From Mucilaginibacter sp. (GTDB taxonomy: Bacteria > Bacteroidota > Bacteroidia > Sphingobacteriales > Sphingobacteriaceae), in assembly GCA_025934475.1 (NCBI GenBank), contig JAICXZ010000027.1:1-12449 (forward strand): 12,449 nt of DNA, read 5' to 3'. Both the position numbers and the translations under genes were made by a program. Numbering within the stretch: position 1 is the stretch's first letter; every line of letters starts with the position of its first letter. The notes under the pieces are model-generated. The model was not told the DNA's origin. It made no database searches and saw only the letters and a program-made list of their open reading frames with translations. Shown piece by piece: positions 1,461 to 9,561 of the stretch.

Positions 1461-2900
1461 ATGAAGAAAATACTCATCATTGATGATGAAGTGAATGTTG
1501 CGTTATTACTCTCCAAGTTTTTAACGCGTAATGGATTTGATGTTGCTACAGCGGCTACGGGGGCCAGCGGTCTCGAATTTTTAAAAAACGGCGGCTACGA
1601 TTTAGTGCTTTGCGACTTTCGCCTCGAAGATACCGACGGGCGTGAGATGCTGAAAAGCATCAAAACCCAATATCCTAAAACGGGTGTTATCATCATAACC
1701 GGTTATTCGGACATCAAAATGGCGGTTGAGCTCATCAAGATGGGCGCATACGATTACATCACCAAACCGCTTTATCCCGACGAGATATTAAATACTATAA
1801 ATAAGGCTTTCGAAACGCATCACGCTTTAGTTGATGAGCCGGCGGCGGCCGTTACCGTAACCAAACCTACAAACGGCAAAAAACCGCAACTGCCAAATAC
1901 CGATTTTGTTGTTGGTACCAGCAAGGCAGCCAAGGAGCTGATGCGCCAGATAGAACTGGTTGCCCCAACTAACTACAGCGTAATTATCCTCGGAGAAAGC
2001 GGTACAGGTAAAGAATCGGCAGCTAAAAATATTCACCTGCATAGCCAGCGTGCCAACATGCCCTTCATTGCGATGGACTGCGGTTCGCTGACCAAAGAGC
2101 TTGCCGCCAGCGAATTCTTCGGTCACGAAAAAGGTTCATTCACCGGCGCTCTCTATACCAAGATTGGCCACTTTGAAATGGCCAATGGTGGTACACTTTT
2201 TTTGGATGAGGTGGGCAACTTGTCGTACGATATACAGGCAGCGTTGCTTCGTACTGTTCAGGAAAGGAAAGTAAAACGCATAGGCAGCACTAAAGAGATC
2301 GATCTTGATGTACGTATCATAATAGCTACCAACGAAAACCTGCAGGATGGCATTTCCAAAGGACGTTTCAGGGAAGACCTTTACCACCGCTTTAACGAAT
2401 TTACCATTTACATGCCTGCTCTCCGTGAGTTGGGAACTGACATTATGCTGCTGGCGAATCATTTTCTGCAAATTGCCAATAACGAGCTGGGCCGCAACGT
2501 TACTGGCTTCTCGCCTGAGGTGGAAGAATGTTTCATGAACTACCGCTGGGCGGGCAACATCCGCGAATTAAAGAACGTGGTGCGCCGCGCTACGCTTATC
2601 ACTGAAGGTGATATTATCCCTCTAAAAGCCTTACCGCTCGAAATATCAAATTATAAATCGACACCTGCCGCCGCTGTCGTCGCTGAGCCCGTCGCTGTTT
2701 CTGTTCCTGTCTACGAACCGGTAGCAGCAGCAAAGGAAGCACGCCACGACTTGAAGAACGCAGCACAGGAAGCCGAATATGATACCATCCTGAAAGTATT
2801 GCGCGAAGTAAACTTCAACAAAACAAAAGCTGCTGAAATATTAAACATCGACCGAAAAACTCTTTACAATAAGATGAAAGCTATTAACTTAGGCAAGTAA
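1461..2900 (+). CDS. Sigma-54-dependent response regulator, NtrC/AtoC family
   Basis: A 479-residue cytoplasmic transcription activator with three domains. The receiver domain (about 3-120) has the acidic pair Asp8/Asp9, phospho-acceptor Asp52 (LVLCDFRL), Thr80 and Lys102 (ITKP), so it should be phosphorylatable. The AAA+ sigma-54 interaction domain (about 148-385) has Walker A GESGTGKE at 178-185 and Walker B GGTLFLDE at 243-250. The sigma-54 contact loop reads GSFTGA at 225-230, Ser in place of the usual Ala. The sensor region RFREDLYHR follows. An Ala/Val/Pro-rich linker (about 400-425) leads to a Fis-type helix-turn-helix (about 436-475, NKTKAAEILNIDRKTLYNK). The family uses ATP hydrolysis to open sigma-54 promoter complexes once phosphorylated. 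No cognate full-length histidine kinase is adjacent; the next gene, 2 nt downstream, is a small DHp-like protein. Confidence 0.96.
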   Translation: MKKILIIDDEVNVALLLSKFLTRNGFDVATAATGASGLEFLKNGGYDLVLCDFRLEDTDGREMLKSIKTQYPKTGVIIITGYSDIKMAVELIKMGAYDYITKPLYPDEILNTINKAFETHHALVDEPAAAVTVTKPTNGKKPQLPNTDFVVGTSKAAKELMRQIELVAPTNYSVIILGESGTGKESAAKNIHLHSQRANMPFIAMDCGSLTKELAASEFFGHEKGSFTGALYTKIGHFEMANGGTLFLDEVGNLSYDIQAALLRTVQERKVKRIGSTKEIDLDVRIIIATNENLQDGISKGRFREDLYHRFNEFTIYMPALRELGTDIMLLANHFLQIANNELGRNVTGFSPEVEECFMNYRWAGNIRELKNVVRRATLITEGDIIPLKALPLEISNYKSTPAAAVVAEPVAVSVPVYEPVAAAKEARHDLKNAAQEAEYDTILKVLREVNFNKTKAAEILNIDRKTLYNKMKAINLGK

Positions 2901-2902
2901 TT

Positions 2903-3115
2903 ATGGAAGAGTCACCAAAGGATAACGTTGCCGGCGAAAACAACAATCGCAGGATACGGCATGATATCCGCAACCAGCTTTCGAATATTAACTTATCGGT
3001 TGAGCAATTAAAATACGAAATACCTGATGACGCCACTTCAGATATCGAGTTCTATATCAATACCATTGCTGTAAGCTGCGCCAAAATCAACCTTTTGCTC
3101 GACGACATCGAATAA
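2903..3115 (+). CDS. Small DHp-only protein resembling a histidine-kinase phosphoacceptor hairpin
   Basis: A 70-residue protein starting 2 nt after the response-regulator stop, so surely co-transcribed and probably translationally coupled. Residues 1-15 are polar and likely flexible. Residues 16-40 form a probable helix with an H-box-like motif, RHDIRNQLSNINLSVEQL, centred on His20. It aligns by eye with kinase DHp helix 1 (EnvZ: HDLRTPLTRIRLATE). Residues 44-70 look like DHp helix 2, ending LLLDDIE. Asp21 with Asn24 and Gln25 fits both the (E/D)xxN/T motif of HisKA and the DxxxQ motif of HisKA_3, which are linked to phosphatase activity in those families. The proline usual after the H-box is Gln here. 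There is no N/G1/G2 ATP-binding region, and the gene stops cleanly before a strong terminator, so it is not an obvious truncation. Inference: a Spo0B- or Hpt-like phosphotransfer partner, phosphatase, or kinase antagonist for the adjacent regulator. The coding call is firm; the function is a hypothesis. Confidence 0.8.
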   Translation: MEESPKDNVAGENNNRRIRHDIRNQLSNINLSVEQLKYEIPDDATSDIEFYINTIAVSCAKINLLLDDIE

Positions 3116-3143
3116 GTACCTGAAACTTAACATATTTTAACAG

Positions 3144-3176
3144 AAGCGCTAAAAACATTTTAGTGCTTTTTTGTTT
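3144..3176 (+). terminator. Rho-independent terminator of the regulator/DHp operon
   Basis: AAGCGCTAAAA (3144-3154) pairs with TTTTAGTGCTT (3158-3168) over 11 bp with one G-U wobble and a 3-nt loop. A T tract, TTTTTTG then TTT, follows. It sits 28 nt after the DHp-like gene stop, which shows the two-gene operon ends here and supports a downstream start at 3207 rather than 3171. Confidence 0.88.
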
Positions 3177-3206
3177 ATAGGGTGTACTTATTGCAATGGT
3201 CTCCCG

Positions 3207-4250
3207 ATGTCAATTTTCAACCATAAACAGCGCGACAACATAATCCTGGTGGCTATAGTTATCCTGGGCTGTTTTATCCTTTACGCCTTATCAGGACTGT
3301 TCAGTTCGATTCTCGGAGCGATAGTTCTGTTCACCATATTCCGGCCTATTTACCTGGACCTCGTAGAAAAGCATCGCTGGAATAGATCGCTTACGGCCCT
3401 GGTAATCATGTTAACATCTCTCATCGTTATAGTGATCCCTTTTCTTTTTATGTGTATTATGATCGTCGGCAAGATCTCGGCACTCACACGGGACGGGCTA
3501 CCCATTCAGGACTGGATCTACAAGATCGACATTTATGCGGCCCAACACCTGGGGCAACCTAAGCTTGCCGAGAGTACTTTGCAAAAGCTCAGCACGTTTT
3601 TAACGGATCTTTTTCCCTCCATCATTAGCAGTGCGGTAAACATTGTACTTACCTTGCTCGTGATGTATTTTTTGCTGTTTTTTATGTTCACACAGATGAA
3701 AGAGTTTGAACTGGCACTGGTAAAATATGCCCCGTTTCGCGAGCAGCATGCGCTTAAGTTTGCAACAGCGCTAAAGAATGTCACTTATAGTAATGTACTC
3801 GGCCAGGGCATTATAGCACTAGTTCAGGGCACTCTGCTGGGGATGGGATTCTACGCCTTTGGGATACCAGATCCCATATTTTGGGGAATGTTGGGTGCGT
3901 TAATTTCTTTTTTGCCTGTGGTAGGTGCGCCAACGTTAACCATCCCTACCAGTATCATTCTTTTCGCCAACGGGCATACCCTTAAAGGTATCGCCCTGCT
4001 CGCTTATGGCTTGCTGATCATCGGCAACATTGACAATATCCTGCGTATGATCATTAATAAACGCCTGGCCAATACCCACCCAATTATATCAGTAATCGGC
4101 GTCTTTATTGGCATCCCATTATTTGGGATTTTGGGGCTGGTTTTCGGGCCGCTGCTATTATCATATTTCTTACTTTTGCTGGAGATATACGAAACCAACC
4201 GGATGGCAGCCAACAGGCTCGAACGGATAAAAACCATTGGCGATAGCTGA
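3207..4250 (+). CDS. AI-2E family transporter (PerM/YdiK-like membrane protein)
   Basis: A 347-residue inner-membrane protein. The ATG at 3207 is chosen because the upstream in-frame TTG (3171) lies within the preceding terminator. Hydrophobic segments fall at about 11-48 (two helices), 62-85, 135-163, 200-250 (two), 258-277 and 295-330. This is the usual pattern of about eight helices, with a soluble-looking stretch at about 88-130. The conserved C-terminal signature reads PIISVIGVFIGIPLFGILG followed by GLVFGP. The family is named for the E. coli exporter TqsA, but most members have no proven autoinducer role; others have been linked to Na+/H+ antiport or general export. It stands alone on the plus strand, with 150 bp before the next gene. 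That interval (4251-4400) is AT-rich and holds no terminator or clear promoter that I can see. Confidence 0.92.
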   Translation: MSIFNHKQRDNIILVAIVILGCFILYALSGLFSSILGAIVLFTIFRPIYLDLVEKHRWNRSLTALVIMLTSLIVIVIPFLFMCIMIVGKISALTRDGLPIQDWIYKIDIYAAQHLGQPKLAESTLQKLSTFLTDLFPSIISSAVNIVLTLLVMYFLLFFMFTQMKEFELALVKYAPFREQHALKFATALKNVTYSNVLGQGIIALVQGTLLGMGFYAFGIPDPIFWGMLGALISFLPVVGAPTLTIPTSIILFANGHTLKGIALLAYGLLIIGNIDNILRMIINKRLANTHPIISVIGVFIGIPLFGILGLVFGPLLLSYFLLLLEIYETNRMAANRLERIKTIGDS

Positions 4251-6646: not shown

Positions 6647-8150
6647 ATGAAAGCAAATCTTATCGCGATAATCGCTTTACTTTTCATTATAAAAAGTGCA
6701 TCCGCTCAAAATGTAACCTTAAAAGTAACGCTCGTTAATTCAAAATCAACAAGCTTTAATATCTGGATGCCTAATGCGTTGATCATTAAAAATCGGTCGA
6801 AGTGCCGTTAAATTCAAACGGTACCGGTAGCTATCGGTTTTCGCTGAATGGTCCGCAATGGGCTTATCTAAGGTGTCAAAACAGCGATGCTGATACCGCA
6901 AAATTCTTCGATTATGTTCTTTACCTGTCGCCCGGCGATGACCTCAATTTCAAAGCCGATTTTAAAATAAAAGATAATGGAATAGTGGTAACAGGTAAAG
7001 GCAGCAATAATAACCAGCCGCTTTTATCAATACTTGAGGGTGAAAGCGGCCGGCAATTCTACGGCGATACCTTACCGAACAGGATAATAGCTTTTGCAAA
7101 CAAGCATCAGGCTGAGCTAAGATCTGCATTTGATAAATATACCGGCACCTACAAGCCAAGTGCTGATTTTATAAAGAAAAAAAACAGAACATTCTTTATG
7201 ACGCTATAATTAGGTATTACGATTTCAGTGAAAATAATAAGTTCCAGATAGGTAATGCGTATGGAAATCCGAAAAATAGATGGAAGGCGATACAGGATAG
7301 CTTGTTTGCAACAGTAAAATTGAACAATGACGAGGCGCTTGGCTCGATGAATTACCCATATCTTCTGCGTACCTTTTTATCTCGCGAAAAAGAAAGACTT
7401 TGGAGCGTGCGTTATGAAAGCCCCGAACCCTTTTTTAAAGAATGGTACAATAGCGATGTATCGGTGGGAAAGAAAGAATTCGAGGCTGACCCGCAAAACC
7501 TTTTGAAGGAAAAGATAATCAATCACTACTTTACAGGCAGACCGGCAGAGTTCTTGTACGCTGTTCTGTTTGATGATGCAATTTTCGAACATTATCCCAC
7601 AAATGTATTGGCGATTTTTGATAGATTCAGGCTAAAATATCCTCATAGCAAATATCTGGACAGCTTTCTTCCTGCGATAGATACCATTCGTCAGAAAGAA
7701 AACCATCTTACTCCCGACATGGTTTTTGTACCGGATAACGGCACAAAACTCGACAAGTTTGAAGATCTGTTAACCCTGGTTAAAGGAAAAACGGTGTTAC
7801 TGGACATGTGGGGAACCTGGTGCTTACCATGCCGAAACGAGATTAGTGAAAATGGCCAGGCCATAAAAGAACATTTTAAAGGCAAGGGACTCGACTATTT
7901 TTACGTGGCCAATAATGATCTTAATCGCGAAGATCAATGGAAAAAACTGATCGCCTATCTCGACATGAAAGGCACCCATATCTTAGCCAATAAGAACCTT
8001 AGTAAGGATATAATGGCCAAAGTAAAAAGCAACGGTTACCCAACCTACGTCGTCATAAAAAAAGACGGCTCTTATGAACTTTCGAAGGCTGGTTATCCGA
8101 TGAAAAGAGAAATATTGATCAAGCAGCTCGAAGAAGCTTTAGCTCAATGA
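6647..8150 (+). pseudogene. TlpA/ResA-like thiol-disulfide oxidoreductase, disrupted by two frameshifts
   Basis: Joined across two shifts, this would be a protein of about 501 residues. Segment 1 (from ATG 6647) starts with a signal peptide (MKANLIAIIALLFIIKSASA) and ends at TAA 6809-6811. Segment 2 (open to 7209) holds the beta-rich N-terminal region (SPGDDLNF, VTGKGSNNNQPL) seen in Bacteroidota TlpA-like proteins. Segment 3 (open from 7167 to 8150) has the long helical middle and a C-terminal thioredoxin fold with Cys-Leu-Pro-Cys at 7821-7832 (LDMWGTWCLPCRNEI). Each shift is a loss of one base next to an A run: A5 at 6788-6792 and A8 at 7177-7184. Adding one A to each restores a smooth sequence (ALIIKKSVEVPL and DFIKKKKQNILYD). 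The intact enzyme would act on disulfides in the periplasm. Either the gene is decaying or the assembly has homopolymer errors; see findings. Confidence 0.85.
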
Positions 8151-9082: not shown

Positions 9083-9427
9083 ATGGGAAAATTAGCAGAC
9101 GATTTTAACGATTACCGCACCCGGATGAACGACCGCATCATGGAGTCGGCCAATACCAATATCAAACGGTTTTTTGCGCTTGACACCACCAGCTATGCCG
9201 AAGGCGCCCTGGACGTAAAAACCAAGGAAATGCTGGGCCTGGTGGCCTCTATGGTTTTGCGCTGTGACGATTGCATCAAATACCATTTGGGCAAATGCCA
9301 CGAGGCAGGGGTGAATAATGACGAGATGAACGAGATTTTTATGATCGCCAATTTGGTGGGTGGATCGATCGTTATTCCGCATTATAGGAGGGCGGTTGAG
9401 TATTGGGATGAATTAAATGGATTGTAA
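9083..9427 (+). CDS. Carboxymuconolactone decarboxylase (AhpD-like) family protein
   Basis: A 114-residue all-helical protein of the CMD/AhpD fold. The AhpD-type catalytic pattern is present: Glu49, then Cys61-Asp-Asp-Cys64, then His68 (LRCDDCIKYHLGKC). The Cys pair and His give a thiol peroxidase or disulfide-reductase centre in AhpD, so a redox role is more likely than true decarboxylation. The C-terminal helices (NNDEMNEIFMIANLVGGSIVIPHYRRAVEYW) are typical. Members usually form trimers or hexamers in the cytoplasm. It is monocistronic, with a tandem repeat immediately upstream and a palindromic repeat downstream. ATG at 9083 is the only sensible start. Confidence 0.92.
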   Translation: MGKLADDFNDYRTRMNDRIMESANTNIKRFFALDTTSYAEGALDVKTKEMLGLVASMVLRCDDCIKYHLGKCHEAGVNNDEMNEIFMIANLVGGSIVIPHYRRAVEYWDELNGL

Positions 9428-9436
9428 TTAGCCAAA

Positions 9437-9533
9437 TTGTCATTGCGAGGGGGTTGTGGAAAGCCTGCGCTGCGAAGCAATCCAGTCGCATGCTACGACG
9501 AGGTTGCTTCGTCGTTCCTCCTCGCAATGACAA
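9437..9533. repeat. 97-bp palindromic repeat element (MITE/REP-like)
   Basis: Perfect 14-bp terminal inverted repeats, TTGTCATTGCGAGG (9437-9450) and CCTCGCAATGACAA (9520-9533), enclose an interior with a second inverted pair, GAAGCAA (9474-9480) and TTGCTTC (9504-9510), which is followed by GTCG. The whole can fold into a long hairpin. I recognise the ends (GTCATTGCGAGG) as a widespread non-coding intergenic palindrome in many bacteria, including Bacteroidota. It lies between the CMD and tag genes and may act as a transcription end for the former. Confidence 0.85.
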
Positions 9534-9561
9534 AGTTTTATACATTTTTTAAACCTTAATT

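Follow-up and report, generated by a model that had tools for sequence, protein, structure and literature searches.

A free-standing 70-residue DHp hairpin encoded next to a sigma-54 response regulator in Mucilaginibacter

The regulator-DHp locus

The window, i.e., the whole stretch of 12,449 nucleotides of Mucilaginibacter sp. analysed here, contains a gene pair composed of a sigma-54 response regulator and a small protein that corresponds to a DHp hairpin, followed by a terminator-like structure and by a transporter gene (Table 1). The regulator comprises a receiver, an AAA+ domain with a GSFTGA loop and a Fis-type HTH, and the residues of the receiver pocket (Asp8, Asp9, Asp52, Thr80, and Lys102) are invariant in the nine regulators that were aligned. 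The ORF of the hairpin protein starts 2 nt past the TAA codon of the regulator and its His20 codon occupies positions 2960-2962. Both this location and the terminator at its end had been pointed out in the initial annotation, and they are borne out by the ORF positions and by the predicted fold. The mechanically delimited ORF of the AI-2E transporter begins at TTG 3171, immediately past the terminator stem.

Table 1. Features of the regulator-DHp locus and the evidence for each of them
Feature	Positions	Strand	Evidence
NtrC-type sigma-54 response regulator, 479 aa, intact	1461..2900	+	Response_reg 9.5e-29, Sigma54_activat 1.7e-63, HTH_8 2.4e-10 (Pfam)
Free-standing DHp (HisKA-type) hairpin protein, 70 aa	2903..3115	+	ATG start; ORF, Pfam, model, genus-wide matches
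H-box HDIRNQLSNIN (His20, Asp21, Asn24, Gln25)	2960..2992	+	Residue counts across 356 sequences
Terminator-like hairpin with T-rich tail, 3' of the regulator-DHp pair	3142..3170	+	Fold of 3132-3180, z = -4.1
AI-2E family transporter, next gene	3207..4250	+	Pfam 5.6e-36; ATG start read from sequence

Some other genes of the window deserve a comment. Upstream of the regulator, positions 616-1281 hold what by eye appears to be a secreted, barrel-like gene, with no Pfam match at E <= 0.5, and such barrel-like genes flank the regulator-DHp pair on both sides in two of the three loci (L045 and L048) of another genus, coded g3. The frames 6647-6811, 6802-7209, and 7302-8150 are apparently, also by eye, one split thioredoxin-fold (TlpA-like) gene; a frameshift may have caused the split, or else an error in the assembly, which has 852 contigs. 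A short frame on the minus strand (9372-9545) contains the peptide SLRGGTTKQ, which we take to be one known from dispersed repeats of Bacteroidetes, and a DNA search of its own genome (70% complete) returned no further copies of this frame.

The 70-residue protein was initially described as a free-standing DHp with a near-textbook H-box and no ATP-binding domain, and both features hold. The window copy matches HisKA in Pfam (E = 2e-4; 21.8 bits, under the curated cut-off of 26.9 bits), and apart from it only DUF7278, an unrelated family, comes up at E <= 1 (0.06). HisKA (PF00512) matches all 33 aligned relatives at E <= 1, with a best value of 1.1e-7. Among the other families suggested at first, SPOB_a (PF14689) matches three of the 33 relatives at E <= 1 (best 0.038), which does not place the protein in the Spo0B type, and HisKA_3 is not among the Pfam matches listed for the window copy or the 33 relatives. 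Pfam gives no match to HATPase_c or any ATPase domain in the 70 residues, whose stop codon is followed by the terminator-like hairpin. A sensor domain is also absent, and the protein ends after the DHp hairpin, without a second C-terminal domain.

The predicted model of the monomer consists of two helices (residues 6-39 and 46-68; mean pLDDT 85). The comparison with DHp domains by Foldseek yielded weak DHp matches mixed with unrelated hairpins, the best of them by E-value being the RetS-GacS DHp co-complex (7n0e), with a non-significant E of 0.64. The H-box carries the HisKA motif, i.e., His, an acidic residue at +1, and Asn/Thr at +4. A Pro at His+5 is usual in HisKA domains, though not obligatory, and in the hairpin protein this Pro is absent. 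Asp21 and Gln25, at His+1 and His+5, present the spacing of DxxxQ, the motif reported for HisKA_3 and CheZ phosphatases (PMC3510030), the corresponding Gln of DesK being Gln193 (PMC5231405). The initial annotation was right in noticing this spacing, but the protein matches HisKA, a family whose phosphatase residue stands at His+4 (Asn24 in this protein).

Conservation and distribution of the hairpin protein

A profile search detected strong open matches (E <= 2.7e-21; frames of 61-95 aa) in 142 of the 149 Mucilaginibacter genomes, and matches of any strength in 146. Seven genomes have no strong match: three of them (G246, G251, and G265) have none at all and the other four (G249, G252, G262, and G273) have only weak ones. 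The regulator of G262 runs to the contig end, and the remaining six yielded no orthologue of the regulator, with a best identity of 45% or no match; five of these six assemblies are 58-83% complete and that of G273 is 94% complete.

The first search matched 58 of the 201 genomes of the family, with frames of 65-83 aa in 35 Mucilaginibacter genomes, 69-80 aa in three genomes of g3, and 240-933 aa in the other 20 matches. With E <= 0.001 and a limited length range, a profile search of a protein collection retrieved 994 proteins, and the organism names shown among the matches listed (120 of 994) are Mucilaginibacter, one name being incomplete. In 395 genomes of the phylum, a sample without g3, no frames shorter than 110 aa outside the genus were found among the matches listed.

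The regulator lies immediately 5' of the hairpin gene in all the 116 loci parsed, and the start of the hairpin gene falls between -4 and +18 nt from the regulator stop. The partnership with the regulator, for which a survey of the whole family had been suggested, is thus constant within the genus but does not extend across the Sphingobacteriaceae: of 25 genera sampled, the hairpin protein was found in Mucilaginibacter and g3.

His20, Asn24, and Leu26 are invariant in 356 sequences (240 database proteins plus the 116 loci), so that the loss of His20 in orthologues, regarded at first as a possible argument against the DHp reading, was not observed. Asp21 and Gln25 are each present in 355 of them, replaced in the remaining sequence by Glu and Lys, respectively. 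The dN/dS ratio, calculated by counting, has a median of 0.36 and a highest value of 0.85, and it is below 1 in 299 of 299 pairs, which are non-independent. The protein is under purifying selection and is neither a chance ORF nor a decay product, in agreement with the absence of decay that had been noticed in the window copy.

Kinases at the same locus in other genera and origin of the hairpin

Behind the same regulator, other genera encode, in this order, a kinase (HK1), a single receiver, and a second kinase (HK2). HK1 contains a MASE3-like membrane sensor, PAS, HisKA, and an ATPase (CA) domain, and HK2, of about 480 aa, is composed of REC, PAS, DHp, and CA; the Pfam domain runs on the proteins of this kinase slot covered L161, L162, L165, L171, and L031. 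Across the other Sphingobacteriaceae genera examined, the slot is occupied by a full or a truncated kinase, or is empty. The genes located behind the kinases are those that come next in the window: an AI-2E homologue behind the kinase slot was confirmed in seven of the 11 relative loci searched, and outer-membrane protein, YtxH-like, and holin-like genes, named by likeness only, are also found there. In three genera (L167, L168, and L170) an AI-2E-like gene lies directly 3' of the regulator.

The best match of the hairpin protein in other genera is HK2 or, in the genus coded g5, a kinase of 927 aa. This g5 kinase, located next to the regulator (L031-L033), consists of a membrane sensor of the HK1 type and a PAS-DHp-CA part of the HK2 type, and the same genomes encode a second HK2 elsewhere (L176-L178).

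In a tree of DHp domains built on few columns, whose bootstrap had not settled, the hairpin proteins of both genera cluster in a single clade (98/99) and, together with the HK2 DHps, are separated from 15 further DHps from the family (91/84), these being weaker matches of the same profile. The reverse search with a g5 DHp returned the hairpin protein as the top match in 37 of 41 Mucilaginibacter genomes; a full kinase ranked above it in G240 and G036, and G249 and G265 have no hairpin protein that was found. The regulator tree unites Mucilaginibacter and g3 (94/100) and nests the pair in a larger clade (99/96), in the rest of which the HK2 of the locus is His-less, further truncated, or absent; g5, g8, g24, and g23 lie outside this clade. 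The sensor part of HK1 was detected in none of 31 Mucilaginibacter genomes, while the same query reaches HK1 of distant genera in a local tblastn, and an HK2 search at E <= 1e-15 matched 39 of 201 genomes, none of them from the genus.

Relatives thus have a catalytic domain at this place, which points to a kinase stripped to its DHp as the likely origin. Most likely, the protein is a remnant by descent of an ancestral REC-PAS-DHp-CA kinase (HK2), of which the DHp hairpin is left. Such a domain in relatives had been put forward initially as a sign against an independent role. It was indeed found, in other genera, and it tells about the origin; a function of the remnant is not refuted by it, because the gene is under purifying selection and its catalytic residues are unchanged.

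The HK2 family presents a gradation of forms: complete HK2, HK2 without the ATPase domain, REC-PAS only, DHp only, and nothing. The phosphoacceptor position is His in all ten HK2-type DHps of outside genera (L031-L033, L038, L043, L046, L050, and L176-L178) and in none of the 22 sister-lineage HK2 DHps examined, which have Asn, Asp, Lys, Glu, Leu, or Arg instead. These 22 proteins all keep the Pro at His+5, and at His+4 they carry Asn (13), Asp (7), Ser (1), or Thr (1). Six of them (L049, L165, L166, and L196-L198) are devoid of CA and end 48-60 residues past the His position, with no CA match behind their stops; in five of these six loci the AI-2E gene starts 58-231 nt downstream. In the genus coded g20, L171 and L200 end after the PAS part and L199 has no alignable H-box.

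The His-less, CA-less HK2 relatives are likely pseudokinases. These REC-PAS-DHp proteins come from the genera g2, g25, and g20, plus one from g18, and by eye the receiver of L165 and L166 is also without its usual acidic residues. The hairpin protein mirrors its sisters, with the His retained, the Pro lost, and all else gone. At His+1, the outlying HK2 proteins have Glu and the hairpin protein has Asp.

Possible function of the hairpin protein

The hairpin protein has no CA domain and is therefore incapable of autophosphorylation. Its anatomy, its conservation, its constant neighbour, its relation to HK2, and the purifying selection are the data from which a role can be proposed. We rank first, with a probability of about 0.45, that a dimeric DHp coming from HK2 docks on the neighbouring receiver and acts most likely as a phosphatase, possibly as a phosphotransferase. 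The ancestral HK2 would have belonged to the operon of this regulator. A single loss of its sensor modules and ATPase domain, before Mucilaginibacter and g3 diverged, would be the simplest course, and the hairpin would have been retained as a separate gene beside the regulator. Two copies would pair into a four-helix bundle that would dock on the receiver of the adjacent regulator and remove its phosphate, with His20 and Asn24, perhaps together with Asp21/Gln25, orienting the water. The regulator might receive its phosphate from kinases encoded elsewhere or from small-molecule donors and be reset by its own phosphatase, presumably made along with it.

This proposal finds a precedent in the isolated DHps of EnvZ, NtrB, and HK853, which like the hairpin protein have a HisKA H-box and no CA, and which are reported to be enough to dephosphorylate the cognate regulator, this being NtrC for NtrB (PMC3510030, PMC5727384). 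The DHp of NtrB or EnvZ alone is described as a constitutive phosphatase in vivo, although a weaker one, since CA raises the activity greatly (PMC3510030). In CrdS, the Asn at His+4 is reported to be required for the phosphatase activity only, and the change of Glu to Asp at His+1 removed the kinase activity and kept the phosphatase (PMC3510030). The published activity of DHps alone and the role of this Asn favour a phosphatase, which needs no unknown donor. However, those DHps are laboratory constructs and the hairpin protein is a natural gene with Gln replacing Pro at His+5. This Pro matters, given that its change to Ala lowered the phosphatase activity of CrdS (PMC3510030) and eliminated that of EnvZ (PMC2991266), and its loss in the hairpin protein counts against a phosphatase; the Gln at +5 with the Asp at +1 might compensate for the missing Pro. 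The His poses a second difficulty. It is reported to be helpful but not required for the phosphatase activity (PMC3510030), the activity of the HK853 DHp with a mutated His being diminished (PMC5727384), and if the His only helped, its presence in all 356 sequences would be surprising when 22 of 22 sisters have lost it.

These two difficulties turn in favour of the explanation that we rank second, i.e., a minimal phosphotransferase, of the Spo0B/ChpT kind cut to the hairpin, whose His20 would be charged by a receiver, or in trans by the ATPase domain of a kinase, and would hand the phosphate on to the sigma-54 regulator. This is possible, although we hold it to be less probable than a phosphatase. 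It would account for a His that is invariant without an ATPase domain, in contrast with the His-less HK2 of the sister genera, and in EnvZ the loss of the Pro is reported to remove the phosphatase activity and to spare the transfer (PMC2991266). Relay components are present in the operon of related genera, namely HK1, a single receiver, the REC-PAS-DHp-CA kinase, and the regulator. Nevertheless, no donor was identified, the Mucilaginibacter locus being without kinase or single receiver, and among the matches listed of 205 HATPase_c in three complete genomes of the genus there is no lone ATPase domain, except a frame of 116 aa in G111. Spo0B and ChpT are described as phosphotransferases that, like the hairpin protein, have a DHp hairpin with a His serving a regulator. 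Both retain a second domain, C-terminal and degenerate ATPase-like, whereas the hairpin protein has nothing behind the hairpin. Split kinases such as CheA3/CheA4, in which the phosphoacceptor and catalytic parts are reported to be on separate proteins, are also different in that the acceptor is the P1 domain of CheA3 and the partner CheA4 is dedicated (PMC3591291).

It is rather unlikely that the protein is an adaptor forming mixed bundles with the DHp of a kinase encoded elsewhere, which it would bring to the regulator or block, in the way known for RetS and GacS. Possible partners are abundant (58, 64, and 83 HATPase_c matches in three genomes of the genus), and the best Foldseek match is precisely a complex in which the DHp regions of RetS and GacS are described to pair. 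That match is non-significant, no partner gene lies at the locus, and mixed pairing alone leaves the invariant His, Asp, Asn, and Gln unexplained. Still more improbable would be a non-catalytic binder that senses the phosphorylated receiver, as described for the DHp region of DivL with DivK~P. The locus tolerates non-catalytic forms, as suggested by the 22 His-less HK2 pseudokinases of the sisters, six of them without ATPase domain, but the hairpin protein retains the catalytic His that they have lost. In addition, RetS-GacS and DivL are long multi-domain kinases, unlike the hairpin protein. Finally, a decaying kinase remnant or a spurious ORF can be practically dismissed, since the protein, even if a remnant by descent, has an open frame in 142 of 149 genomes, a dN/dS below 1 in all pairs, and His and Asn in all sequences.

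To our knowledge, DHp domains are generally described as working within a kinase or joined to a second domain. We found no description of a natural DHp-only protein in the literature searched (open-licence full texts). Some members carry source names such as histidine kinase or phospho-acceptor domain protein and, as far as we have seen, the gene is annotated yet unstudied. The domain and its chemistry are both known; what is new here is the likely origin of the hairpin protein from HK2.

Evolution has seemingly arrived at what biochemists obtained by cutting EnvZ and NtrB, and it has kept this construct across the genus, with intermediates in sister genera. The lineages with His and without Pro, versus those with Pro and without His, provide a natural test of the residues needed by a DHp without autokinase, and the hairpin protein is a small target for structural and phosphotransfer work. 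The His-less, CA-less HK2 relatives, as likely pseudokinases, merit their own study. As a tentative view, less probable than a phosphatase role, the genus may run a sigma-54 regulator through a bare 70-residue DHp phosphotransfer bundle fed by kinases encoded elsewhere. This bundle would be perhaps the smallest natural histidine-aspartate relay module, and it would stand at one end of a series in which different routes led the same kinase to lose either the catalytic histidine or the catalytic domain.
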